Shown: one piece after another, positions 6,272 through 54,018 of the stretch
Position numbering within the stretch: position 1 is the stretch's first letter
Layout of the letters: every line of letters begins with the position of its first letter
From: Cytophagales bacterium
Lineage (GTDB): Bacteria; Bacteroidota; Bacteroidia; Cytophagales; Thermoflexibacteraceae
NCBI GenBank assembly: GCA_004294445.1
Contig: REAZ01000024.1
Coordinates: 1-64,000 of the forward strand
Direction: 5' to 3'
DNA: 64,000 nt
Translations under genes and position numbers: made by a program
The notes under the pieces: generated by a model
Seen by the model: the letters and a program-made list of their open reading frames with translations, nothing else
Told to the model about the DNA's origin: nothing
Database searches by the model: none

Positions 6272-8404
6272 TTATATCTTAGGAAGTTCCACAAAAAAGG
6301 TGCTTCCCTGATTAGGTCTGCTTTCTACCCAAATGCGTCCCCCATCTTTTTCTATAAATTCCTTGCACAAAAGTAATCCTAAGCCCGTACCTTTTTCATC
6401 TTTTGTTCCTCTGGTAGTGAAGTGGGTATTGCGGTTAAATAATTTTTGTAATTGCTCTTCGGTCATGCCTATGCCACTATCTCTGACACCAATTTGCACA
6501 AACTCCTCATTATCTGTTGATACAACCTCAATTTTACCATTTTCGGGCGTAAATTTGATGGCATTACTCAGAAGATTGCGAAAGACAAGCCGCAAATGAT
6601 TAAGGTCTGCACAAACAAAGGTATGCTCAGGCACAAGGTTAATAAGTTTGATATTTTTTGCCTCTGCGTTCGCTATAAAAAGATTGATTTTCCCATTGAT
6701 AAGTGATTGTATTTCAATTTTTTCTTTGAAACTTATGCTACCGCTCATCTGCGATTTTGACCACACAAGAAGGTTATTAAGGGTATAATCTAATCCATCT
6801 AAGCGTTTTTTGATGTCTTTGCTAATCATTTGAATCTCCTCGTCAGAAAGCCCGCCCATTGCCAAAATAGTAAGCACGCCCTTCATTGCACCCAAAGGGC
6901 TACGGAGGTCATGCGAGATAATAGAAAACAGCTTGTCTTTGAGCTGATTGAGTTCTGAAAGTTCGTTCGATTGGGCTGTAATTGCCTTGTTCTGATTAGC
7001 AACTACATCTAAAGTATTTTTTAGCTCTTCGTTTATTTGGCTTAGTTCCTCATTTTTAGCAGAAATGTCTGCTTTTTGCAAATTCAAGAGTGTATTTGCT
7101 TTTATCTTATCGTTATTTACTGTATAAAGTGCATAAATCAGACTCGCTAAAAGCAAGAAAACAAGCGTAACTACTATAAATACCTTGTTTTTTAGTTCAT
7201 TTTCTGCTTTTTGTACTTCTAATTCTTTTAGTGTGTTTTTTCTCTGATATTCCGCGGTGATTTGCGTTTCTAACTTATTTGCTTCATTGATATTTTCCAC
7301 TTTGTTCATGCTGTCCGAAAAAGTCAGGTATCGGTTCAAATATGAGAAAGCACTCGTAAAATCCCCTTTTTTCTGAAAGTAAAGGGCAGAAACTTCATAA
7401 AACTCTTTGGTAAGCGAGGGTAGGTTTACCTTGGGTAGGTTCTTTTCTAAGGAATCTTTAAAAATTTTAGCACTGTCCATTTTTCCTAAGTGGGTGTAAG
7501 CGGCAGCAATACGGTTCATCGTAATCATGGCATTTTCATTGACCCTGTTTTTTTGGGATAGCAAACTGCTTTTGAGGTCTTCATACAGGTATGGGATTGC
7601 TTTTTCATATTTTTTTTCATAAAAATACGAATCGCCAATATTACCCCGTATTAAACCCTTCCAGAAAAAATCTTTGGGGTAAAGACTCGCATAAAAATAG
7701 GCGGTATCGTAATATGCTCTTGCCGAGTCAAAGTAATCTTTTTTACCTTCCATAAGCGCCTGCTTTTGGTAAGAAAGTGCAATTGTATTATAAATAGTAC
7801 GTAAAAAATCTTTGCTTTTAAGGTTATGACGCGCCACAAAATGGAGATATTTTCGGGATTTATCGTAATCTTTGATGCCGTATAAGATACTTCCCAACCG
7901 ATAAGATGCATCAAATACCAAAGTATCATCACCAATTTCTTTGGCAATTTCTATTTCTCTTTCTGCATACACCAAAGCAGAATCCAAGCGATGCCAACTC
8001 TGATAATTGGAGGCATTGCTCTCATATAAGTAATATAAGTTCCTATTTCTTTGTCCTTTATTTTCCTTTTCTGCTTTGTTAAAATATAGGAAGCCTCTCC
8101 TTAAATCTTTTTGAGAGAAGTAATAATTGCCTACTGAGAGGCAAGCAGCAACTCTTGAAAAAGATGGAAATTGGTCGTTATTAATGATTTCTTTTATCAA
8201 TTTTTCATTAATTCCCCTGCGTACAGAATCATGCTTATTTTTATCTATCCTGTCCAATAAACTTACATGAGAGATGTAATGAATTGTGCGCATTACTACA
8301 CGCTCCTCTTTGCTGTACAAACACCTAAATGCACTGTCTAAAAAAGATTGGGCTTTGGAAGACAGCGAGCAAAAGATTAATAGAAATAGAAAGTGAATTT
8401 TCAT
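6272..8404 (-). CDS. TPR-containing sensor histidine kinase
   Basis: 710 aa. A signal peptide (1-18) is followed by a helical region of TPR-like repeats (about 60-390), presumably periplasmic, one membrane segment (about 412-435), a coiled coil, then a cytoplasmic kinase: HisKA with SHDLRSPLG (phospho-acceptor His498) and HATPase with N box (NLLSNAIKFTPENG), DSGIGM and GTGLGL boxes. It should sense a protein or peptide cue through the TPRs. No response regulator lies next to it, so it is an orphan kinase; its partner is unknown. The C-terminus ends cleanly after the ATPase domain. Confidence 0.9.
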   Translation of the reverse strand: MKIHFLFLLIFCSLSSKAQSFLDSAFRCLYSKEERVVMRTIHYISHVSLLDRIDKNKHDSVRRGINEKLIKEIINNDQFPSFSRVAACLSVGNYYFSQKDLRRGFLYFNKAEKENKGQRNRNLYYLYESNASNYQSWHRLDSALVYAEREIEIAKEIGDDTLVFDASYRLGSILYGIKDYDKSRKYLHFVARHNLKSKDFLRTIYNTIALSYQKQALMEGKKDYFDSARAYYDTAYFYASLYPKDFFWKGLIRGNIGDSYFYEKKYEKAIPYLYEDLKSSLLSQKNRVNENAMITMNRIAAAYTHLGKMDSAKIFKDSLEKNLPKVNLPSLTKEFYEVSALYFQKKGDFTSAFSYLNRYLTFSDSMNKVENINEANKLETQITAEYQRKNTLKELEVQKAENELKNKVFIVVTLVFLLLASLIYALYTVNNDKIKANTLLNLQKADISAKNEELSQINEELKNTLDVVANQNKAITAQSNELSELNQLKDKLFSIISHDLRSPLGAMKGVLTILAMGGLSDEEIQMISKDIKKRLDGLDYTLNNLLVWSKSQMSGSISFKEKIEIQSLINGKINLFIANAEAKNIKLINLVPEHTFVCADLNHLRLVFRNLLSNAIKFTPENGKIEVVSTDNEEFVQIGVRDSGIGMTEEQLQKLFNRNTHFTTRGTKDEKGTGLGLLLCKEFIEKDGGRIWVESRPNQGSTFFVELPKI

Positions 8405-8510
8405 ATATCATGTTGAAAGACTATTGTTTATAAAATCAAAAATAGTAATCAAATGCAATAAAACTTACTAATAAGTACAGTAAATCAGGGTGTGCTAAGT
8501 AATATATTTT

Positions 8511-9590
8511 CTATTGGCTAATTCTCCCTCTCCTGATGGCTTTATCCGCACACTGCCCAAAGGCGTGTACTAAATAAATCAGGTTGGCAAACCGCTTGTC
8601 TTGGGTATATCCTTTTTTATAGCGTGCATAAATTTGCTGGACAATTACACCAATTTTAAAACAACCAAAAGCATAGTAAAAAATAATATTTTTTGATAAT
8701 TCATCAATATTTCTGCCTGTTTTTTGGGCATAGCGTTCTATGATTTGTTGCCTATTCAGGTTGCCTTTGAGCGAAGTAAGGGAAAAGTTACGTAATATTT
8801 CGGGGTCGTCATCTTCAGCCCAATAGCCGAGCGTAGTACCCAAATCCATGAGAGAGTCGCCTATAGTTGCCATTTCCCAATCCAATACCGCAATGATTTC
8901 GGTAAGTTTGTTTGGGTTAAGTATCACGTTGTCATACTTATAATCATTGTGAATGAGTGTAGCGGGCTGCTCTGCTGGCATATTGGCAAGTAGCCATGCG
9001 GCGGTGCTATCCATGAGGGGAATATCATCTGTTGCTGCTTTTTTGTAGCGTTCTGTCCAGCCTTCTACCTGCCGTTTTACATAGCCTTCGGGCTTGCCCA
9101 TCGAGCTAAGGTTATATTTTTGAATATCTATTGAGTGCAGTTCTGCCAAATTATCAATCGTGCTTTCTGCAATTCCCTGCATGAGTTCGGGCGTAAGCTC
9201 GATGCCTTCGGGTGCTTTTTGTCGGAGTATTACGCCCCGTACTCTTTCCATCATGTAGAACTCTGCTCCAATAATGCTTGTATCGTTGCTATAAATCAGG
9301 GGCTTAGGGACTTTTGAAAAGGCGGGGGCGATACTGTTTAAGATGTTGTATTCTCGTGCCATGTCATGAGCAGATTTGATGTTTGCCCCAAAAGGAGGGC
9401 GGCGAAGCACAAACTCTTTATCACCAATAGTAACCATATAAGTTAGGTTGGAGAAGCCCGAAGGAAATTGGGAAACGCTTATTTCTCCGATAAGGTCGGG
9501 GAGGTGCTGACGAAGAAATAACTGCAAATGGACTATATTTAGCTCTTCTCCTTGCCTGATTGCTTTGGGGCTATCAATATTCATTTCCAT
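8511..9590 (-). CDS. APH-fold phosphotransferase, ACAD10/11-like
   Basis: 359 aa. The kinase-like fold of the aminoglycoside phosphotransferase superfamily is shown by the nucleotide-binding FVLRRPPFG segment, the catalytic loop LIHNDYKYDNVIL and the metal-binding VLDWEMATIGDSLMDLG. The whole chain aligns in style with the N-terminal kinase domain of ACAD10/ACAD11, which phosphorylates 4-hydroxyacyl-CoA intermediates. A role in hydroxy-fatty-acid breakdown is therefore more likely than antibiotic resistance, although no acyl-CoA dehydrogenase is adjacent. ATG at 9590 or, two codons later, 9584. Confidence 0.8.
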   Translation of the reverse strand: MEMNIDSPKAIRQGEELNIVHLQLFLRQHLPDLIGEISVSQFPSGFSNLTYMVTIGDKEFVLRRPPFGANIKSAHDMAREYNILNSIAPAFSKVPKPLIYSNDTSIIGAEFYMMERVRGVILRQKAPEGIELTPELMQGIAESTIDNLAELHSIDIQKYNLSSMGKPEGYVKRQVEGWTERYKKAATDDIPLMDSTAAWLLANMPAEQPATLIHNDYKYDNVILNPNKLTEIIAVLDWEMATIGDSLMDLGTTLGYWAEDDDPEILRNFSLTSLKGNLNRQQIIERYAQKTGRNIDELSKNIIFYYAFGCFKIGVIVQQIYARYKKGYTQDKRFANLIYLVHAFGQCADKAIRRGRISQ

Positions 9591-28412: not shown

Positions 28413-28755
28413 CTCTGTTAAGATTTATTAAAAAAACAAAAGTAATAGCTTTCAAACTTTGGATAGAGCAAATATTCTCAAAATATCTTGGATTTAGGGC
28501 TAAAATCTCAAATAAAATCAAAACTGTGCCTTTATTTTCCCTAAAAACATCAAATAAATGTACGAAAATGAACACTATCTTAATAAAATCGTACACTTTG
28601 CTTGTCTATATAAAAGCATATTTTGACATAATACATTGTTTATCAATTTATTATATTTTTTGGCATATCGTTTGGCTAATAGAAAGACATCTAAGAAATA
28701 TTTTTAAATTTAAAAGTAAACTTAGCAAAACTTTATTAATTAAAAAAACAAAAAA
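28413..28755. other. AT-rich divergent intergenic region
   Basis: About 343 very AT-rich bases between the RemB-like gene and the small secreted protein. A minus-strand -7-like match (TACTTTTG, 28437-28444) lies 25 bases before the RemB ATG but lacks an upstream TTG. Open frames here look accidental. I see no RNA gene. Confidence 0.6.
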
Positions 28756-43787: not shown

Positions 43788-46106
43788 TTATAAAGGTTTT
43801 AACACCAATTCTTCTCCTTTTTGGCAGTCTTTTTCCAACATACTTCCCTGACTTTCTTTTCCATTAAGCGAATATTTTTCGCCCAACGTATGGGCTAATT
43901 TGATTTTTCCCCCAAACGGAGCTTTCACCTTTATTTCAGTAGTTTTGCCGTTTTCTACCTTTGCACTGACAGAAAAGCCGCCTTCAACTCTGATATTTTC
44001 AAAGGAAAAAGTAGTGTTGAGCCACGCCAAAGGCACATCAGGAATTACATGGACTACGTCTTGTCGTTGCTGAACCAAAATTTCTAAGACGGCACTCAAA
44101 GCCCCTTGCCCCGCATCCAACTGCATCACTTCGCTATTTTTTACACTTTCGGGCATTTTGTACCACGTAGGCGAGCCAATGAGCGAAACGCCCGTACTAT
44201 TTGCATTGTGCAGCGTACCTCTGCCCTCGTTTACAAAATTTTCTCTCCACCAATGTAGCCACGATACCGCCGCTTCCGTTCTGCCACTTCGCATATTCAG
44301 AATAGATGCCCAAGGCACACACCAGCCACTCCATGCCCCAGAACCTTGAGTTACCCAACGGTTCAGTGTACTACTTACAATTTGCTTGTGCTGTGCCGCT
44401 TGCGGGTCTATAGTCCCAAAAGGATAAATACCGCCCAAGTGTGCGTGATGTCTGTGGCTATCTTCCAAGTCTGTTCCCTCCCAAAGGGCAATGAAAGTGC
44501 TATTATTTCCCCATCTTTCGGCGTTGTAAGCCCCTACTATAGTGCTGTAGGGTGGCAAACTTTCGCTTACTTTCTGCCAACGTGGGTCTATTTCTTGGTT
44601 TGTAAGTTTGGCTGCCTGAGGTAAAATCTGTGCAACACAGTGCAAAGCTGCCAACTGAAATGAGGCGTTTTTGCCCCATGCATCCATGTCCGCCCCTTTA
44701 AATTCGGGACTCACCGAAACGGGCAAACTCAATACCGTTCTGCCATCACCGTAACGAGATTCTTCGAGCATCGCCCAGTAGCCCTCGAAAGCACCAATGA
44801 GCAAGGGCATCGCTATTTCCTTCAAAATCTTTTCGTCCATCGTGTAGCGGTAGTGCTGCCACGCAAGCTGTGCCATCCAAGCCGTGCAAGCATGGTCTAT
44901 CGTCCCCGTCCAGAATGTACCTACTACTTGGCATCGGTCATCTACGGCGTGCGGAAGCATCAGCGCCTTTTCATTTCCAAAAAATTGCTTACCATTTTTC
45001 TGCATTTGGGGTAGCCAAGACATGAGCATTTTCCACAAGGGATTGAGATTATTCGCCTTTCCTGTAGCAAAATTGGGTAGGTAAATCATTTCCACATTGA
45101 TATTGAAATGATAGTCGTTGCTCCAAGGCGGAAGTTGGTACTCCTCCATGAAAACGCCCTGCAAAGTACACGCAACACCGTGTTCGGGCATGGTAGCGGC
45201 TTGTTTGTAAAGTCCATAATCAGCAATTTCTTGCAAAATAGGGTCGGGTAAAGAAATTTTTGGTACTTCAGCCCAATAGCTTTTCCACCAATTATTTTTC
45301 TGGATAAGCAGTTGTTTTATGTTGCCTTTGCCAAAATTTTCTACTATTTTTTCCTTGCCATTTTTGCCCAAGAAAGACCCCACTAAAATTTGATTTTCTT
45401 TTGAAATATAGCCCAAAGACAAAGGCTCGTCTGCGGGTAAGTTTTGTGTGAAACCCTTTCCGCCAGCCATTTCCCAAAGTTCGGGCGGGCTTACTCCCCA
45501 TCCACTCAATTTTTGCTTGGAAAACTCCCAAGCAGGAATCAACTTAATTTCGGTTTTGCCAACTAAGTTTTTAGACAATTCTATGGAAGTTAGTTCCTCA
45601 AAAACGGCTTGATTAATTGTAATTGTTTCATTGACAGGTGTTTTACCTGCCTTGTTTGTTCTGCTTTTATCGCCTATGACCACTACTAATTCTGCCTTTC
45701 CTAAATCCAACTTGGCGGTTTGGAGAACATAATTTTCAGGAAGTTTTATTTCCAACCTCCCTCCCCCAATCTGATAGGGTTCGTGCGGCTCATTTGCCGA
45801 TTTTTGAGGAACAGCAAAGGTTTTTCGTAAGGCTTGTTCGTCCTTTGCCTCCAACATTTTTTTTACTTCAAAATAAGTAGTACGGGCAGAAAAGTCATTG
45901 CCGCCTCTGTGGTCCCAAAAGCCCGCCCTACCAATGGTAATTTTTAGGGTATTGCCTTCACCCCAAACCATCAGCCCTTGTGTGCCGTTGCCTATAAGTG
46001 CGCCTGCGTGCGTTCGCTTCACGGGAAAAGTCCAAGTCAGCGTTTGCTGTGCTTGTAAATAGCTTTGCCAAAGCAAAAAAATACCAAGTAAAATAATTTT
46101 TTTCAT
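43788..46106 (-). CDS. GH95-like alpha-L-fucosidase/galactosidase
   Basis: 772 aa with signal peptide (about 1-19). The (alpha/alpha)6-barrel catalytic part shows NDYHFNINVEM (the Asn pair of GH95, near residue 335), SVSPEF (catalytic Glu, near 463) and MQLDAGQGALSAVLEIL (catalytic Asp, near 662). The N-terminal region (about 25-260) has the beta-sandwich PVKRTHAGALIGNGTQGLMVWG start. It probably removes terminal alpha-fucose or a similar sugar from glycans in the periplasm. No PUL-type SusC/D pair is adjacent. A fragment of this gene recurs just upstream at about 46287-46362. Confidence 0.83.
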   Translation of the reverse strand: MKKIILLGIFLLWQSYLQAQQTLTWTFPVKRTHAGALIGNGTQGLMVWGEGNTLKITIGRAGFWDHRGGNDFSARTTYFEVKKMLEAKDEQALRKTFAVPQKSANEPHEPYQIGGGRLEIKLPENYVLQTAKLDLGKAELVVVIGDKSRTNKAGKTPVNETITINQAVFEELTSIELSKNLVGKTEIKLIPAWEFSKQKLSGWGVSPPELWEMAGGKGFTQNLPADEPLSLGYISKENQILVGSFLGKNGKEKIVENFGKGNIKQLLIQKNNWWKSYWAEVPKISLPDPILQEIADYGLYKQAATMPEHGVACTLQGVFMEEYQLPPWSNDYHFNINVEMIYLPNFATGKANNLNPLWKMLMSWLPQMQKNGKQFFGNEKALMLPHAVDDRCQVVGTFWTGTIDHACTAWMAQLAWQHYRYTMDEKILKEIAMPLLIGAFEGYWAMLEESRYGDGRTVLSLPVSVSPEFKGADMDAWGKNASFQLAALHCVAQILPQAAKLTNQEIDPRWQKVSESLPPYSTIVGAYNAERWGNNSTFIALWEGTDLEDSHRHHAHLGGIYPFGTIDPQAAQHKQIVSSTLNRWVTQGSGAWSGWCVPWASILNMRSGRTEAAVSWLHWWRENFVNEGRGTLHNANSTGVSLIGSPTWYKMPESVKNSEVMQLDAGQGALSAVLEILVQQRQDVVHVIPDVPLAWLNTTFSFENIRVEGGFSVSAKVENGKTTEIKVKAPFGGKIKLAHTLGEKYSLNGKESQGSMLEKDCQKGEELVLKPL

Positions 46107-46140
46107 TTTCTTCTAATTTTTTATTGCCGTTTAAGTAGCG

Positions 46141-46165
46141 GGATAAATTTAAGGTATATTTATCC
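46141..46165. promoter_or_regulatory. Palindrome upstream of the GH95 gene
   Basis: Arms GGATAAAT (46141-46148) and ATTTATCC (46158-46165) around nine bases, with two further matching positions inside. It lies 35-59 bases upstream of the GH95 ATG (minus strand), where an operator would be expected. Confidence 0.45.
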
Positions 46166-46190
46166 TAAAAGGCGAATATACAATAATTTA

Positions 46191-46362
46191 TTCCGCTATT
46201 TGCTTTCGCTATTGTTTTGGACAACAGTAAAATTTTCTGAAATGTCATTCGGGAAAATAACTTCTGTATAGTTTTCATCTTTATCTCCCAAAGTTCGGAC
46301 GAACTTACTCCCCACCTGCTCAACTTTTGTTTGGGAAACTCCCAAGCAGACAGCTTCATTTA
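46191..46362 (-). pseudogene. Chimeric relic of efflux-adaptor and GH95 gene fragments
   Basis: Positions 46211-46292 match 52891-52972 (3' end of the RND adaptor gene) at 76 of 82 bases by my hand count. The match continues to about 46191 after a 19-base gap relative to the gene (52872-52890 missing). Positions 46287-46349 match 45473-45535 (inside the GH95 gene) at 54 of 63, and weaker similarity runs to about 46362 with a 3-base in-frame loss. Both parts are in the parents' orientation. They meet at CCCAAA, within TTTCCCAAA shared by both parents. An open frame of 64 aa (46165-46359) keeps the GH95 reading (AWEFPKQKLSRWGVSSSELWE) but leaves the adaptor frame. No function is expected. Confidence 0.85.
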
Positions 46363-46391
46363 GGTAAGCAAGACAAGCCTATTTTTTATTT

Positions 46392-47837
46392 TTACTTCGT
46401 ATATGTAAATGCTCTTGTGGCTACATTTCTGAATACGTAAGACTTGCCATCAACTTCCGTAAAAGAAACGTTTCTTGCTTCTATCGTGATGGTAAAGTTA
46501 AATCTGTCATCTACATTCGCAAGCTCTGCCCCTGTAAAAGTAATGCTTGTGGTGTTCGGCTGAAAAATCTTACTGACGGTAGAAATCCGAACATTGTTAG
46601 CATCTGTGGAGATAATAAAAACCTCTAATTCATCACAAGGAATGACGTTTGCCAATTGTAGTGTAAAGCCATTAGTTTTATCCAAATTGGTGAAAGAAGG
46701 AAAAGTCGTATCAGGCATTGGGGGATTAGGCTTATTGGTGTCGAAATTAATGGCAGGAATATCATTTGAGCCACTAACTGCCCAACTAATGGTAGGATTA
46801 TTAAACACCATACTATTATTTACATAAGCATTATTTATGGCATTTCTTGCCAATACCTGTCCATTACAACTTACCGTTCCCGCACTTACGAAAGGAGGCA
46901 TGTCTCTATTACCTAAATAGAAAATACTATTTGCAGACAAAGAAGTAGAAGCCGAAGTAGCTATTAACCTGCCACGAGATTCGGAAGAAGAAATCAAAGC
47001 AACCAAAGTGCCAACCAATCTACGCTGTACCAATATGGACGTACTTCTATTTGCGGTGTTGCCAAACTCATCTGTTACCACCAAATTAACGATTTTCATG
47101 CCTGAGCTTCTGAAGGCAAATACAGGATTCTGTACTGTGGAGCTAAAGCCTTCTTCTGGGGTAGAAGTCCATGCAAAAGTTCTTGCATCGCTTGTGCTTC
47201 TATTCGTAAAAGTAACCACATCAGCAGCAACGGGATTGGGGTTAGATACAGTAAAATCAGCACGTAAACTTGGAGCAGCAATGGTAATCATTTTGCTCAC
47301 AGTAGTACTACCTCCCGCACCCGTTACCTGTAGGGTAAGCGTATAATTGCCTGCGGTGGCAAAGCTAAAAGTAGGGTTTTGCTGGGAAGAGGTAAAACCT
47401 GCTGGTGAAGATGACCACGCAAAAGTTGTCCCATTCTGTACTGTGGTGGTGATGGCTACAGGCTGGCGCGTAATAGGGTTGGCGACACTGAATGCAAAAT
47501 CTACTGTAGGTTTTGCTTCTACCACAGTAATAGATTTTGTAATTGGAACACTCCCTCCATCACCAGTAGCCGTAAAGGTAACTTGGTAAGTCCCTGCCGT
47601 AGTAAATCGCTGACGTGCTGTGAGTTGTGTACTGCTCAATGCCGTAGGAGAGGAACTCCAAGTATATGTTTTGGCATTTTGTGCTGTACCAGTGAATACT
47701 ACTTCATCTTGGGTAGTAGGATTTTCAGGTGCAAAGGTGAAGTTTGCCGTTGGTAAAGGCGGAGTATCACTTTTTTTGCAAGCATTCATAATGATTAAAA
47801 AAGCCCCCAACAGTGCGAATAAAATGTGTTTTTTCAT
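46392..47837 (-). CDS. PKD-domain lipoprotein
   Basis: 481 aa. The signal ends in a lipobox at Cys20 (LIIMNACKKSD). Three PKD repeats follow (about 30-110, 110-190, 190-270), each with the TANFTF/VDFAFS/ADFTVS start, a YTWSSSP-type Trp and an AGTYQVTFTATGDGG-type strand. The C-terminal about 210 residues are beta-rich and unrecognised. PKD domains bind glycans or proteins outside the cell; the protein is likely a surface-exposed or periplasmic lipoprotein. No catalytic motif is seen. Confidence 0.85.
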   Translation of the reverse strand: MKKHILFALLGAFLIIMNACKKSDTPPLPTANFTFAPENPTTQDEVVFTGTAQNAKTYTWSSSPTALSSTQLTARQRFTTAGTYQVTFTATGDGGSVPITKSITVVEAKPTVDFAFSVANPITRQPVAITTTVQNGTTFAWSSSPAGFTSSQQNPTFSFATAGNYTLTLQVTGAGGSTTVSKMITIAAPSLRADFTVSNPNPVAADVVTFTNRSTSDARTFAWTSTPEEGFSSTVQNPVFAFRSSGMKIVNLVVTDEFGNTANRSTSILVQRRLVGTLVALISSSESRGRLIATSASTSLSANSIFYLGNRDMPPFVSAGTVSCNGQVLARNAINNAYVNNSMVFNNPTISWAVSGSNDIPAINFDTNKPNPPMPDTTFPSFTNLDKTNGFTLQLANVIPCDELEVFIISTDANNVRISTVSKIFQPNTTSITFTGAELANVDDRFNFTITIEARNVSFTEVDGKSYVFRNVATRAFTYTK

Positions 47838-47982
47838 AATTTTTTAGAGTCCAGTAACGTGAGTTATTGAATTAATTGAAATTTTTATCCCAAAAAAATG
47901 TGAGTCTTTAGTATCCATAGACTTTTGTAATTTTGGGATTTTTAGTAACTGTTTATGTATTTACTTAACACCTATTTTCTTA

Positions 47983-48492
47983 CTATTTTGTCTTAATAAA
48001 CACAAAATAAAGTGTATTCAGGGCAGATTTATTGGTAAGAATCATTTGCCCATCTTCAAAGGAAACCGTAAATTCAGGAGGCATACCATTAGCTTCCATA
48101 TACAAAATATCACCTTTTACTTCGTATCTTGCATTACCTGTTCCACCTTGAGGCATCTGGTCAGACTTTTTATAAGTAACACTTGCGGTGCCATCTTGCT
48201 TAAAATTCCAAACACTACCTTTGTAAGATGCATTATATTGTTTTTCTTGCTCTGTGATTTGGCTTTTCAGTGCCTCCATTTCTGTTGTTACTACCACGCC
48301 TTCTATTGTCCAGACACCTACAACAGTCTTGTCATTGGTGCTGGCTTCATCTTTTGTTGCATTGGTTTGAGCTGTAGCACTTTTTTTGAGAGCATCGGTA
48401 GCCTTACCTTTCAATGCCCCTAAACTTTGGGCTTGTGCAGTGCCTGTCAGCATCAGTAAGCCAACAAGCAAGCAATACATATTTTTTTTCAT
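47983..48492 (-). CDS. Secreted lipocalin-like protein, unknown
   Basis: 169 aa with signal peptide (about 1-21). A short polar helical linker rich in Lys, Ala and Thr (about 25-55) leads to a beta-rich domain beginning VVGVWTIEGVVV and containing VWNFKQDGTASVTYKK and ARYEVKGDILYME, the pattern of lipocalin-like domains in Bacteroidota. Ligand unknown. It starts 21 bases after the stop of the 400-aa secreted protein gene and is probably in one operon with it. Confidence 0.65.
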   Translation of the reverse strand: MKKNMYCLLVGLLMLTGTAQAQSLGALKGKATDALKKSATAQTNATKDEASTNDKTVVGVWTIEGVVVTTEMEALKSQITEQEKQYNASYKGSVWNFKQDGTASVTYKKSDQMPQGGTGNARYEVKGDILYMEANGMPPEFTVSFEDGQMILTNKSALNTLYFVFIKTK

Positions 48493-48513
48493 GAGAGTTT
48501 TTTGTTAAAAACT

Positions 48514-49716
48514 TTATTTTTTGATTTTACTACAATCAATTGGGTTTAAATCACCATTCGCCCAATGATATACTTTTTTGCCAGCGTAATTTTCTGTTTG
48601 CGAACCTACCGTATAAGCATTGTCCATACGAACTACAATAGTTTCAAAGGCACACTCCCCACTTGGCGTTTTCATCACTGCCACTATATTCATCTCTCTG
48701 GCTACCAATGTATTTAATAATTGTGGACCTACTTGCTTAATCACATTGCTCCATTCTTTGATTGGATAAACGGATATGATTGTTTCTTTCCAGCCAAATT
48801 CTTTTGCACGTGCCTGTGCAGCTTTTAGTAAATCTGCATTGGAAGGTTCTTCTTTGAATGTAATTTTGTTGGGCATAGTGGCATTGGCAGCATTCGCACC
48901 AAGCACCATAGCACATCTTATATCACTTTGACGCAATAATTCTTTGACGATTGCCTCTTTTGTCCATTTAGACACATTTTTACCTTTTTTGTAAATCAAG
49001 TTAAAGGGATAATATTTGAGATAGGCAGCTTGTTTATCTGCTTCGTCCTTAAAAAGTGAACCACCCACACAAGTAGTAACTCCGTTTACAGGTCTTACAA
49101 GCTCGTGCATCACAAAAACACCTGGCTCAAGCGTAGAAATATAATCCAAGTTTCTACCGTTTTTAGCAATTTTATCTTGATAATCAATAGAGTCTGTGTA
49201 AGTTCCCTCCCATCTGTACTCTGTTTCATTAGCAAATTTGGCGTTGAGAATTATTCCTTTTTCAAGAAGTTTTAAATCTGTACCAGTTGGGTCATTTTCG
49301 TTAGTAGGTTTTACTACAAAATTTTTGATAATGTTAGTAGTTCCCAAGTGTGTGAATACAATTTTTTTGCAGTCGGGGCTTGCTTGCACCGCAAATTTTT
49401 GAATGGTTATTTCAACACCTCTACTCAAATCTGTTGATAAACCAATGGCTTTTTGGGATACATAAATCCCGCTAATGTCCAACTTATCTTTGGTAAAAGT
49501 TGTGCCATCAAGTTTGGTATTTTCGAGGTCTTTTTGCCCATCTTTTTCAGTTGGCAAGGCAAAACCATTCCAATCTTTGTCGCCACCGCCAAAGCCAGCT
49601 TCACCAGCTTGCCCTACTTTTTCTTTTAGTTTTTTTAAAAACTGTGCTTGTGAGTCTTGTGTGATAACCAAAGCAAAAACAAAAACAAACGATTTTAAAA
49701 TTGTTGTGATTTTCAT
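48514..49716 (-). CDS. Secreted protein, unknown
   Basis: 400 aa with signal peptide (about 1-24, ending SQAQ). A Gly-rich segment (35-50) precedes a mixed alpha/beta body. I do not recognise a domain. Features: DLSRGVEITIQKFAVQASPDCKKIVFTHLGTTN in the first half, and an LLRQSDIRCAMVLGANAANATM helix; no membrane helix follows the signal. First gene of a two-gene unit with the lipocalin-like protein; both may be periplasmic partners (inference from spacing). Confidence 0.6.
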   Translation of the reverse strand: MKITTILKSFVFVFALVITQDSQAQFLKKLKEKVGQAGEAGFGGGDKDWNGFALPTEKDGQKDLENTKLDGTTFTKDKLDISGIYVSQKAIGLSTDLSRGVEITIQKFAVQASPDCKKIVFTHLGTTNIIKNFVVKPTNENDPTGTDLKLLEKGIILNAKFANETEYRWEGTYTDSIDYQDKIAKNGRNLDYISTLEPGVFVMHELVRPVNGVTTCVGGSLFKDEADKQAAYLKYYPFNLIYKKGKNVSKWTKEAIVKELLRQSDIRCAMVLGANAANATMPNKITFKEEPSNADLLKAAQARAKEFGWKETIISVYPIKEWSNVIKQVGPQLLNTLVAREMNIVAVMKTPSGECAFETIVVRMDNAYTVGSQTENYAGKKVYHWANGDLNPIDCSKIKK

Positions 49717-49752
49717 CTGAAAATATTAGATTTTGTGATGAGATAATTTTTT

Positions 49753-49790
49753 CTGTAGCTACAGACTTTAGTCCGCAGCACACTGTTACA
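49753..49790. repeat. REP-like palindromic sequence
   Basis: A perfect 12-base palindrome CTGTAGCTACAG (49753-49764) is followed directly by a second small inverted repeat (CAGACTTTAGTCCG). The nested layout resembles short extragenic palindromes found in many copies in some bacteria. It has no T-tail and lies upstream of the divergent secreted-protein gene. No second copy was seen here. Confidence 0.45.
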
Positions 49791-49965
49791 TTTTGTATTT
49801 TGACAAACAAAACTACATCACTTAGTATTATTATTTTCAGCAGATGAGTAACTGCGGGTTATGCGTGAGAATTTGCGGACTTTGTATGAGAATTTGAAAA
49901 TTTGGCGTATTATTTTTTGGAATATTTAAAAAAACATAGCATTTTGCAACAACTCTAAAATATGT

Positions 49966-51984
49966 ATGATGAGAATTTTTAATTTACTCATTCCTTATAC
50001 TTCCTCCCATACTATTAAATTTGTACTTTTTATCTACCTCTCATCGTGTTTGGTACAAAATATCACAGCACAAGATTATAGGTGGAGTAAAGATAGTTTA
50101 CAAAGGGCTTTCTACTCAGCCACAGTAGATAGCGTGAAAGCTAAAGTCTTAATGGATATAGCAGGTTTGTATGCTAAAACGAACTCAGATACTTGTATTT
50201 TATTAGCAAAACAAGCCTTAGAACTTAGCCAAAAAGCAAATTTTAAGCGTGGTAAAGTCCATAGTCTTAATGTCATTGGACTTGCTTATTACCGCAAAAA
50301 CGATTATCGAAATGCAATCCTATACTACGAACAAGTAAAAGCAGATATAGATATTTTAGCCCCTCCCCCACGTTGTGGACTATTCCTAAATTTAGGAAAT
50401 ATTTATATGAAACAGGCTAACTATCCCGAAGCTATAGAAGCCTATCAAAAAGCACTAAAGATAGGCGAATCTATAGGAAATAAACAAGCTATTTCTATCT
50501 GTCTTAACAATATCGGCAATATTTATGAGGCTCAAAAAGATGATGATTTAGCCTTGAAATATTATGAACAAAGCCTTAAAATTAAACAAGAACAGCAAGA
50601 TAAAAAAGGCATATCTGCCACCTTGAATAATATCGGTAATATTTATAAAAACAAAAAAAAGTACCCTTCATCCTTGGAATACTATAAATCTGCGCTAAAA
50701 ATACAGGAGGAATTAAATGATACAAAAGGGATAGCAATGACACTGAATAACATAGGTGCTATTGCCAATATGCAAAAAAAATATGACATAGGCTTAGAAA
50801 AGTATAAACAAGGACTTACGCTAAAAGAAAAGGTTGGAGATAAGTTAGGAATGATTTATTCTCTGAATGGAATCGCCGAAATCTATCAAAATCGTAAGGA
50901 ATATGATGAGAGCATAAAATATGCCCAAAAAGCACTGTTTATAGCCAAAGAAATAAAAGCATTAAGAGAAATAGGTATAGTTTATCAAACTTTTTATAAA
51001 ACTTACAGAGATAAAAATGATTATTCGCAAGCACTGAATTATTATGAGCTGTATAAACAAATAAATGATAGTATTTTTAATATTGCAAAGGCTAAACAAA
51101 TTGCCGAATTACAAACAGCTTTTGAGGTAGAGAAAAAAGAAATAGCACTTGAAAAACAAAAAATAGAAATACAGAAACAAGAAATGGAAATTAAAGCCTT
51201 AGCAAAAGAAAATAGAAATAAAGTTTTTGCTTTGCTTGGCTTGGGAGTTTTATTGATTATTCTGGGAATTGGTGGCTACTTATTTTATAAAAACCGCCAA
51301 GTGATAGCCAAATACAACTTATTACAAACAGAACAGCAAGTTTATCGTTTGCAGATGAACCCACACTTTTTCTTTAATGCTTTGGTAGCTATTCAGGATT
51401 TTGTGGTGCAGGCGGACGGACTAAAGGCAAGTTCGTATATCTCAAAATTTGCAAGGCTGATGCGACAAACTTTGGAACAGTCGCAACAAGAATTTACAAG
51501 TTTATCCTCTGAAATAGAAACTATTAAGTACTATTTAGATTTGCAACGACTTCGTTTTAATAGCAAATTTCAATACGAAATTACCGTTGATGAAAATTTG
51601 GAAATTGACGACATACAAATTCCCATCATGCTTATGCAACCTGTGATAGAAAATGCCATCGAACATGGTTTGAAAGAAAGTAACAATGGCAAAATAACAA
51701 TTTCATTTAGCCAAAAGTTAAATAAAATGACGGAAAATTTATTGCAAATTACGATTTCTGATAACGGAATTGGGCGAAATAAAGCAAGTCAAATCAATAC
51801 AGACAGTATAAATATTCCCCAAAAACATCATTCTATGGCAACTAAAATTTTGGCAAGTCGCAAGGAACTATTGCGAAAACAAGCTAATTTTAATTTAGAA
51901 ATAGAAATTACAGACAAAAGTGTAGAAACACACAAGGAAAGTGGCACAATAGTTTGTTTCTCAATGCCTTTGAAATACATATAG
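49966..51984 (+). CDS. TPR histidine kinase, LytS/YehU type
   Basis: 672 aa (ATG 49966 or 49969). An N-terminal signal-like segment (about 16-36) is followed by about seven TPRs (55-370; repeated NNIGNIYE-type motifs), a coiled coil (390-420), a membrane helix (about 422-442) and a HisKA_7TM/LytS-type kinase with MNPHFFFNALVAIQDF (His467) and a HATPase with MLMQPVIENAIEHGLKES and DNGIGRNK. It signals to the LytTR regulator, whose ATG lies 2 bases after its stop codon. TPRs probably face the periplasm and bind a protein or peptide cue. Confidence 0.93.
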   Translation: MMRIFNLLIPYTSSHTIKFVLFIYLSSCLVQNITAQDYRWSKDSLQRAFYSATVDSVKAKVLMDIAGLYAKTNSDTCILLAKQALELSQKANFKRGKVHSLNVIGLAYYRKNDYRNAILYYEQVKADIDILAPPPRCGLFLNLGNIYMKQANYPEAIEAYQKALKIGESIGNKQAISICLNNIGNIYEAQKDDDLALKYYEQSLKIKQEQQDKKGISATLNNIGNIYKNKKKYPSSLEYYKSALKIQEELNDTKGIAMTLNNIGAIANMQKKYDIGLEKYKQGLTLKEKVGDKLGMIYSLNGIAEIYQNRKEYDESIKYAQKALFIAKEIKALREIGIVYQTFYKTYRDKNDYSQALNYYELYKQINDSIFNIAKAKQIAELQTAFEVEKKEIALEKQKIEIQKQEMEIKALAKENRNKVFALLGLGVLLIILGIGGYLFYKNRQVIAKYNLLQTEQQVYRLQMNPHFFFNALVAIQDFVVQADGLKASSYISKFARLMRQTLEQSQQEFTSLSSEIETIKYYLDLQRLRFNSKFQYEITVDENLEIDDIQIPIMLMQPVIENAIEHGLKESNNGKITISFSQKLNKMTENLLQITISDNGIGRNKASQINTDSINIPQKHHSMATKILASRKELLRKQANFNLEIEITDKSVETHKESGTIVCFSMPLKYI

Positions 51985-51986
51985 AA

Positions 51987-52733
51987 ATGAAACTAATTAT
52001 CATTGATGACGAAGAACAACAAAGAAATTTCACCTCTTCGATTATCAAAAAATATTGTCCAATTATGGAAGTAGTAGCCCAAGCTGCCAATGTAAAAGAT
52101 GGTATTGAGGCTATTCAGAAATATGCACCTGATTTGATTTTACTTGATATCGAAATGCCTGATGGCACAGGTTTTGACTTGTTGAAAAAGCTGATGCCCA
52201 TAGATTTTCAAGTCATTTTTATTACTGCCCACAACGAATTTGCGGTAAAGGCTTTCAAATTTAGTGCTTTAGATTATCTGCTGAAACCGATTGACCCTGA
52301 AGAACTTGTGATGACTTTGCAAAAAGCACAACAAGTGCAAAAGCAAACACAAATTCAAATGCAATTAGCTATTTTGCTAAATAATATCCAGGATTTTGCG
52401 GGAGAAGTAAAAAAATTAGTATTGAAAGATGCTGATAATGTTCATATTGTGTCTATTGCAGAGGTGATGTATATGCAGGCGGACAATAATTACACAAGTT
52501 TTTTCTTGGCTGATAAACGCAAAATTGTGATTTCCAAAACCCTCAAAGAATACGAACAGCTGTTGGAAGGAAAAGGCTTTTTTCGTTGCCACCAATCACA
52601 TCTGATAAATCTAAATTATGTGTTGAGAATAGACAAACGTGAAGGTGGTTTTATTGTGATGAAAGACCAAACACAACTACCGTTGTCGAGTCGCAAAAAA
52701 GACCAATTATTGGAGTGGTTGGAGAATTTGTAA
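51987..52733 (+). CDS. LytTR-family response regulator
   Basis: 248 aa from the ATG at 51987 (MKLIIIDDEEQQRNF); an upstream in-frame start at 51954 would overlap the kinase gene. The receiver (about 1-120) has Asp54 in LLDIEMPDG, followed by a LytTR DNA-binding domain (about 145-248; VMYMQADNNYTSFFLADKRKIVISKTLKEYEQLL, FRCHQSHLINLNYVLRI). It acts on the output of the upstream TPR kinase. A 16-bp-stem terminator follows. Confidence 0.95.
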   Translation: MKLIIIDDEEQQRNFTSSIIKKYCPIMEVVAQAANVKDGIEAIQKYAPDLILLDIEMPDGTGFDLLKKLMPIDFQVIFITAHNEFAVKAFKFSALDYLLKPIDPEELVMTLQKAQQVQKQTQIQMQLAILLNNIQDFAGEVKKLVLKDADNVHIVSIAEVMYMQADNNYTSFFLADKRKIVISKTLKEYEQLLEGKGFFRCHQSHLINLNYVLRIDKREGGFIVMKDQTQLPLSSRKKDQLLEWLENL

Positions 52734-52743
52734 GTAAAAAAAT

Positions 52744-52786
52744 AAGCACAGCAATTCTTCTGTTATCATAAGAATTACTGTGCTTT
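52744..52786. terminator. Bidirectional intrinsic terminator
   Basis: Stem of 16 base pairs with one G-U pair (AAGCACAG CAATTCTT / AAGAATTACTGTGCTT), loop of about 11 bases, A-run and T-containing tails. It separates the convergent LytTR and efflux-adaptor genes. Confidence 0.85.
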
Positions 52787-52842
52787 AAAAAGTTGGCAAA
52801 GCCATTTTTTCAGCCCATTAACGAGTCTTTTGACTGATTTTA

Positions 52843-54018
52843 CTATTCATCTCCCGCCGCTTGCTTTCGCTGCATTTCCAAGGCGGCTACATTGTTTTGG
52901 GCAATAGTAAAATTTTCTGAAATATCATTCGGGAAAATAACTTCGGTATAGTTTTCATCTTTGTTTCCCAAATTGACCTTGTATTTTTTGATGGCGAGCT
53001 TGCCACTTCCTACAGCCGATTCCGTCCCAAAGACAAAAAAGTTGTCCTCCTCTTGCACGATGGCGGCAAGCGGAACAGCATGAGCCGTAACATCTTTGTA
53101 TTTGTTCAGCACAATAGCTCGCACGCTCATACCGGGAAGGACGAGCGCACCTTGTGGTGCTTTGAAAGTTACATGAACTTCTATGGCTTTGGTTTCGGGG
53201 TCTATGGAGCGCGAAATACTCTGCACCGTTCCTTTGACTGTAGCAAGTGCCTGATTTACGAAGTCAATTTCTACGGTTTGTCCATCTTCCACTAAGTCAA
53301 TGTCTTTGTCGTAAACATAAATTTCGGCGTGTAGCTCACTCACATTGACGATTTCCGCCAATACCGTTTGCACCGAAGCAAGCACGCCGACAGATACGGG
53401 CAAATTAATCACATAGCCATCTATCGGCGATTCGATAGTTACGGCATTCACTACATTGGCATTTTTGGGGTCTTGCAAGTTGGTAATGCTGATGCCGAGC
53501 AAGTCCAGCTTTGCTTTCAATGTTTTTTCCCTGCTCAGGCAAGCGTTGTATTTAGCCTCTGCCGTTTGCAAATCTACCAGCGCACCTACATTATTTTTTA
53601 TCAGTTCCTTTTGCCTATCAAGTTCTATGGTAGAAAAGTCTGTTTCGCTTTCTGCGGTCATGTAGGCATTTTGGAGTTCAATGAGTTCCATGCTCGATAG
53701 CGTCATGATTGGCTGCCCTTTTCTGACGATGCTGCCCTCTATCACAAAAATTTTATCCACTTTCCCCTCTATATTTGAGCTAACTGTAGCACTTAGATTG
53801 GGTAAAGATTTGACTTTGCCGTTGAGGTAAACATTGGTTACTATTTGTCTGCGTTCGGGTTTGGCAAATTTGATGTTTAGGGTTGCCAACTGGCTTTCGC
53901 TAAGTGTCATCAAATCGCTACTGACTTTTTTCGTTGTTTCAACTGTTTTTTTATCTTCACCGCACCCGACTAATAAAAATATTGCCGTAAAAAAGTATAT
54001 CAAAAATGTATTTTTCAT
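52843..54018 (-). CDS. RND efflux periplasmic adaptor (CzcB-like)
   Basis: 391 aa lipoprotein (lipobox ending at Cys19, LLVGCGEDKK). Typical membrane-fusion layout: two half-lipoyl segments (SNIEGKVDKIFVIEGSIVRKGQPIMTLSS; ITIESPIDGYVINLPVSVGVLA), a long alpha-hairpin (about 115-175) and beta-barrel parts with ETKAIEVHVTFKAPQGALVLPGMSVRAIV. It joins the inner-membrane pump to the outer-membrane channel. It starts 2 bases after the pump stop, so they form one operon. Its 3' end is duplicated in the relic near 46.2 kb. Confidence 0.92.
   Translation of the reverse strand: MKNTFLIYFFTAIFLLVGCGEDKKTVETTKKVSSDLMTLSESQLATLNIKFAKPERRQIVTNVYLNGKVKSLPNLSATVSSNIEGKVDKIFVIEGSIVRKGQPIMTLSSMELIELQNAYMTAESETDFSTIELDRQKELIKNNVGALVDLQTAEAKYNACLSREKTLKAKLDLLGISITNLQDPKNANVVNAVTIESPIDGYVINLPVSVGVLASVQTVLAEIVNVSELHAEIYVYDKDIDLVEDGQTVEIDFVNQALATVKGTVQSISRSIDPETKAIEVHVTFKAPQGALVLPGMSVRAIVLNKYKDVTAHAVPLAAIVQEEDNFFVFGTESAVGSGKLAIKKYKVNLGNKDENYTEVIFPNDISENFTIAQNNVAALEMQRKQAAGDE

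Follow-up and report, generated by a model that had tools for sequence, protein, structure and literature searches.

A chimeric relic of two neighbouring genes probably marks the junction of an old tandem duplication in a Cytophagales bacterium

A two-gene relic in the GH95-PKD spacer

Here, we analysed a stretch of 64,000 nucleotides from the genome of a Cytophagales bacterium (the window; contig REAZ01000024.1, positions 1 to 64,000). A 285-base spacer between a GH95 gene (43788..46106, minus strand; Pfam Glyco_hydro_95_cat) and a PKD-domain gene (46392-47837, minus strand) contains a relic at 46191-46362. The first part of the relic (46191..46292 with a core at 46211-46292, minus strand) corresponds to the 3' end of an RND (CusB/HlyD-type) adaptor gene, which is found intact at 52843..54018 on the minus strand with matches to Pfam HlyD_D23/HlyD_3. 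The second part (46283..46365 with an ungapped core at 46283-46349, minus strand) is an internal fragment of the likewise intact GH95 gene, covering codons 185-212 approximately. Both parts meet at the motif TCCCAAA (46286..46292), which is common to the relic and both parents, with breakpoints at 52966-52972 in the RND adaptor gene and at 45473-45479 in the GH95 gene.

An earlier note on this DNA had described the locus as a chimera of these two genes, and our comparisons bear this out. A search of the whole assembly with the relic returned E values of 1.9e-28 (RND) and 3.7e-15 (GH95), and dinucleotide shuffles gave Z values of about 25 and about 19 for the two halves, so that both matches are far above chance. 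In the RND half, 76 of 82 bases are identical (93%; 46211-46292 against 52891-52972, with mismatches at 46221, 46225, 46244, 46265, 46283 and 46285), the same count as reported in the note, while the GH95 half is identical in 57 of 67 bases (85%; 46283-46349 against 45469-45535), which agrees with the 54 of 63 given there for a slightly shorter segment. When gaps are permitted, the GH95 match reaches 46365/45554 at 80% identity and reveals a 3-base deletion in the relic; within the relic, the RND and GH95 matches overlap by about ten bases. The RND part carries a 19-base deletion between 46210 and 46211, to the left of which the match resumes in a gapped alignment, with TTGCTTTCGCT as an exact stretch, and continues until about 46191-46200, close to the RND stop codon. 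An assembly artefact was ruled out, as the copies are 85-93% identical rather than identical. Similarity to genes is found together with truncation, both deletions, a change of frame at the join and an upstream stop codon: the relic has decayed and appears to be non-functional, an ordinary footprint of the pseudogene type whose signature is clean.

Could the seam have been co-opted as a new gene? A 64-codon open frame runs across the relic on the minus strand (46165..46359), following the GH95 frame in its first half and RND sequence out of frame in its second half, and only 12 of 1000 spacer shuffles yielded a frame of such length. This length argues for a functional chimeric small gene, in which an ATG derived from decay would start a new small protein. 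However, half of the frame is open by GH95 descent, the remainder consists of out-of-frame RND sequence with the 19-base deletion, and the ATG arose through decay of GH95 sequence; the frame has neither a Pfam match nor a clear promoter, nor was it carried by any of the relatives searched. The relic region as a whole gave no Rfam match and no terminator, and promoter-like sites occurred at chance level. Judged from its sequence, the frame is probably not a gene, and a functional small protein at this site appears highly improbable.

Microhomology, age and source of the two halves

The earlier note had placed the join at a shared 9-mer. This 9-mer, TTTCCCAAA, is indeed common to both present-day parents (52964-52972 in the RND adaptor gene, 45471-45479 in the GH95 gene), but the relic reads TCTCCCAAA at 46284-46292, and the nine bases were probably not fully shared when the join was formed. 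Since RND codon 352 probably read GAT or GAC at that time, the homology available to the join was probably limited to the seven bases TCCCAAA; the ancestral shared run would have been longer, should GH95 codon 212 then have read GAG. The proposed microhomology-mediated joining itself is supported, as shared runs of at least 7 bases are expected in random RND-GH95 joins at a rate of about 9e-4 and runs of at least 9 bases at about 1.1e-4.

We compared the codons of the relic and its parents with those of the relatives G001 (a Cytophagales MAG with its GH95 gene on contig JAAFJS010000347.1), G002, G004 and G008, a comparison limited to few polarised sites and to distant relatives. Today's parent has AAC at RND codon 352, whereas the relic, G001 and G004 have GAT and G002 and G008 have GAC, which points to a change on the side of the parent. 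At GH95 codons 197 and 199, and at codon 189 in the gapped part, the relic agrees with G001, and here as well the change probably occurred in the parent. Because the relic keeps the bases of the sister genome where today's parents have changed, it can be read as an old within-lineage copy that has since decayed. It departs from both the parent and the nearest relative at GH95 codons 191, 201, 202, 206, 207, 208 and 212 and at RND codons 372 and 373. Most of these changes unique to the relic are C>T/G>A; P>S replacements are seen at three codons, and a stop and indels (the deletions of 19 and 3 bases) occur as well. Small as the numbers are, the pattern looks like neutral decay. Divergence from G001 at fourfold sites amounts to 57-60%, whereas the relic diverges from its parents by only 7-15%, indicating that it was formed after the species split. 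In the G001 assembly, the GH95 gene is split over two contigs overlapping by exactly 125 bases (L041:1-125, L042:1-125), which is an unjoined assembly overlap and not a pair of genes.

A further claim of the earlier note was that the two halves differ in identity and may therefore stem from paralogues, or that selection acted differently on the parents. The difference (6 of 82 bases in the RND half against 10 of 67 in the GH95 half) is not significant (Fisher p=0.18). In the assembly searched (3.44 Mb, 62% complete), the relic has no comparable third place, its other matches spanning 16-33 bases with E values of 0.0016 or worse, and the second copy that the note had recommended looking for did not turn up there for either gene, apart from the relic itself. 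The next RND adaptor homologue in the assembly is 27% identical. Two nearly complete genomes of the same genus have one close RND orthologue each; for GH95, G001 has one close gene and G002 a distant one only. Paralogue donors are thus unlikely, because no close paralogue is present in the assembly or in the same-genus genomes, and this part of the earlier account was not supported. The fragments might still derive from lost or unassembled paralogues, or have been acquired horizontally from a related strain: the assembly covers only about 62% of the genome, and 9 of the 16 differences fall on third codon positions, more than their share, which would fit a source that was under selection for a time. 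However, changes in the constrained parents also predict such an excess, the relic resembles the local genes much more closely than it does any relative, and the nearly complete genomes speak against a paralogue as well. We consider such an origin improbable.

No homologous relic locus was found in the relatives searched, the two same-genus genomes among them, and about 150 bases provide little power on constraint. The surroundings of the parents also differ: the GH95 gene of G001 sits between purH-like and dihydroorotase-like genes, the RND genes of G001 and G002 have other downstream neighbours than the one in the window, and a secreted-looking protein of 400 aa encoded in the window at 48514-49716, without Pfam match, is absent from both genomes.

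The order of the fragments and its explanation

How could the end of one gene come to be joined to the inside of another? Followed along the plus strand, the relic runs to RND position 52972 and then continues from GH95 position 45473, which is a backward jump. The relic and its parents all share one orientation, and the relic is located between the parents, both of them within 7 kb. The locus thereby shows what a duplication junction would display, namely the end of a unit followed by its start in the same orientation as both parents, and a short shared sequence at the join (TCCCAAA in the relic and both parents, nine bases in today's parents). This fit of order and orientation to a tandem duplication had been missed in the earlier note; for randomly placed fragments, we estimate that the backward order and orientation expected of a duplication seam would arise in about one of eight cases. 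An old direct (tandem) duplication of about 7.5 kb, extending from 45473 to 52972, is probably the origin of the relic, which would be its decayed junction.

In such a scenario, recombination or a replication template switch at TCCCAAA would have led from RND position 52972 back to position 45473 in GH95, and the interval 45473-52972 would then have been present twice in tandem, with a chimeric seam composed of the RND 3' end and a truncated N-terminal part of GH95. Two losses would have followed: in the first copy, the intervening genes, starting in the region upstream of GH95 and ending at the 3' end of RND, and in the second copy, whatever remained of the truncated GH95 gene as far as the spacer that precedes the PKD gene. 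About 170 bases of the seam would have stayed behind to decay neutrally, flanked by the intact GH95 and PKD genes. The same sequence would also result from several direct template switches within one event, i.e. a duplication with embedded deletions. In E. coli lac amplification, microhomology was present at 40 of 40 sequenced junctions, and two direct template switches accounted for one complex event, a partially deleted duplication (PMC3161906). We infer the former duplication of the full 7.5 kb as well as the order of the deletions. Against this reading, two further deletions must be assumed, and the other duplicated genes have left no relic. The flanks (46107-46190 and 46366-46391) have no significant match to the sequence predicted beside the seam, their extensions being reached by 36 of 500 shuffles on the left and by 293 and 63 of 500 on the right, and a complete deletion would look alike. 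Nor were the two parts of the spacer similar to each other (217 of 500 shuffles).

Large deletions would not be needed if the fragments had entered the GH95-PKD spacer by an MMBIR/FoSTeS-like templated insertion, and a 7.5-kb duplication would then never have existed. During repair of a broken fork, the new strand would have been extended by about 100 bases on the RND 3' end as template, would have changed to GH95 at TCCCAAA for about 80 bases and then returned, so that two short adjacent fragments from nearby templates would be explained by one event; template switching has been documented to leave inserts from nearby sequence at novel junctions (PMC3161906). The single orientation, the backward order and the position between the parents are, however, not required by such an insertion, each being neutral or mildly unfavourable to it and none decisive. 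We regard this route as rather unlikely, though it keeps an appreciable chance.

Other repeats and known systems

Across the window and a sample of 400 kb from elsewhere in the genome, no second two-gene seam was found. A local gene-end duplication was seen once more in the sampled stretches, on contig C46, where a 205-base direct repeat with 92% identity (L073:1171-1375 and 8483-8687; G000:C46:21171-21375, 28483-28687) carries the 3' ends of a 145-aa ORF and of a fatty acid desaturase gene, which are oriented convergently. The repeat flanks about 7.1 kb encoding a HlyD-type protein, a peptidase-C39 ABC exporter and small GG-motif peptides, a segment that looks like a bacteriocin-type cluster inserted between the convergent genes with duplication of the site. 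A 214-base direct repeat on the same contig (88%; L073:4437-4650 and 7575-7786; G000:C46) spans the beginning of a small GG-motif peptide gene together with its upstream region and has a third partial copy near C46:22729-22761. An intergenic inverted repeat pair of 163 bases, 95% identical and 28.5 kb apart, is located at G000:C8:63511-63673 and 35010-34848.

Our literature search yielded no paper directly on such bacterial relics, and three known systems offer partial parallels. In E. coli lac amplification, junctions of direct kilobase-scale duplications likewise lie at few shared bases and partial deletions have been described, but these are fresh, selected laboratory events, whereas in the relic an old seam would have decayed in a natural, Cytophagales-related genome from which most of the duplicated sequence has disappeared (PMC3161906). 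Footprints of mitochondrial gene rearrangement also reflect local duplication followed by loss, with short remnants at the breakpoints (PMC5569537); the relic, in contrast, is found on a bacterial chromosome, and a change of gene order cannot be shown without a syntenic relative. With the intergenic pseudogene fragments of prokaryotes that are sought by Pseudofinder (PMC9336565), it has in common that decayed partial gene copies lie between intact genes, but it is built from two neighbouring genes and its seam is still readable.

The process is known, and the relic is a tidy, modest single example. Tandem duplications are among the commonest large mutations of bacteria and usually revert without leaving a trace. 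A seam that is still readable and can be dated against sister genomes suggests that junctions can outlive the duplication, and a screen for adjacent fragments of two same-strand neighbours in backward order could thus provide a count of past duplications.
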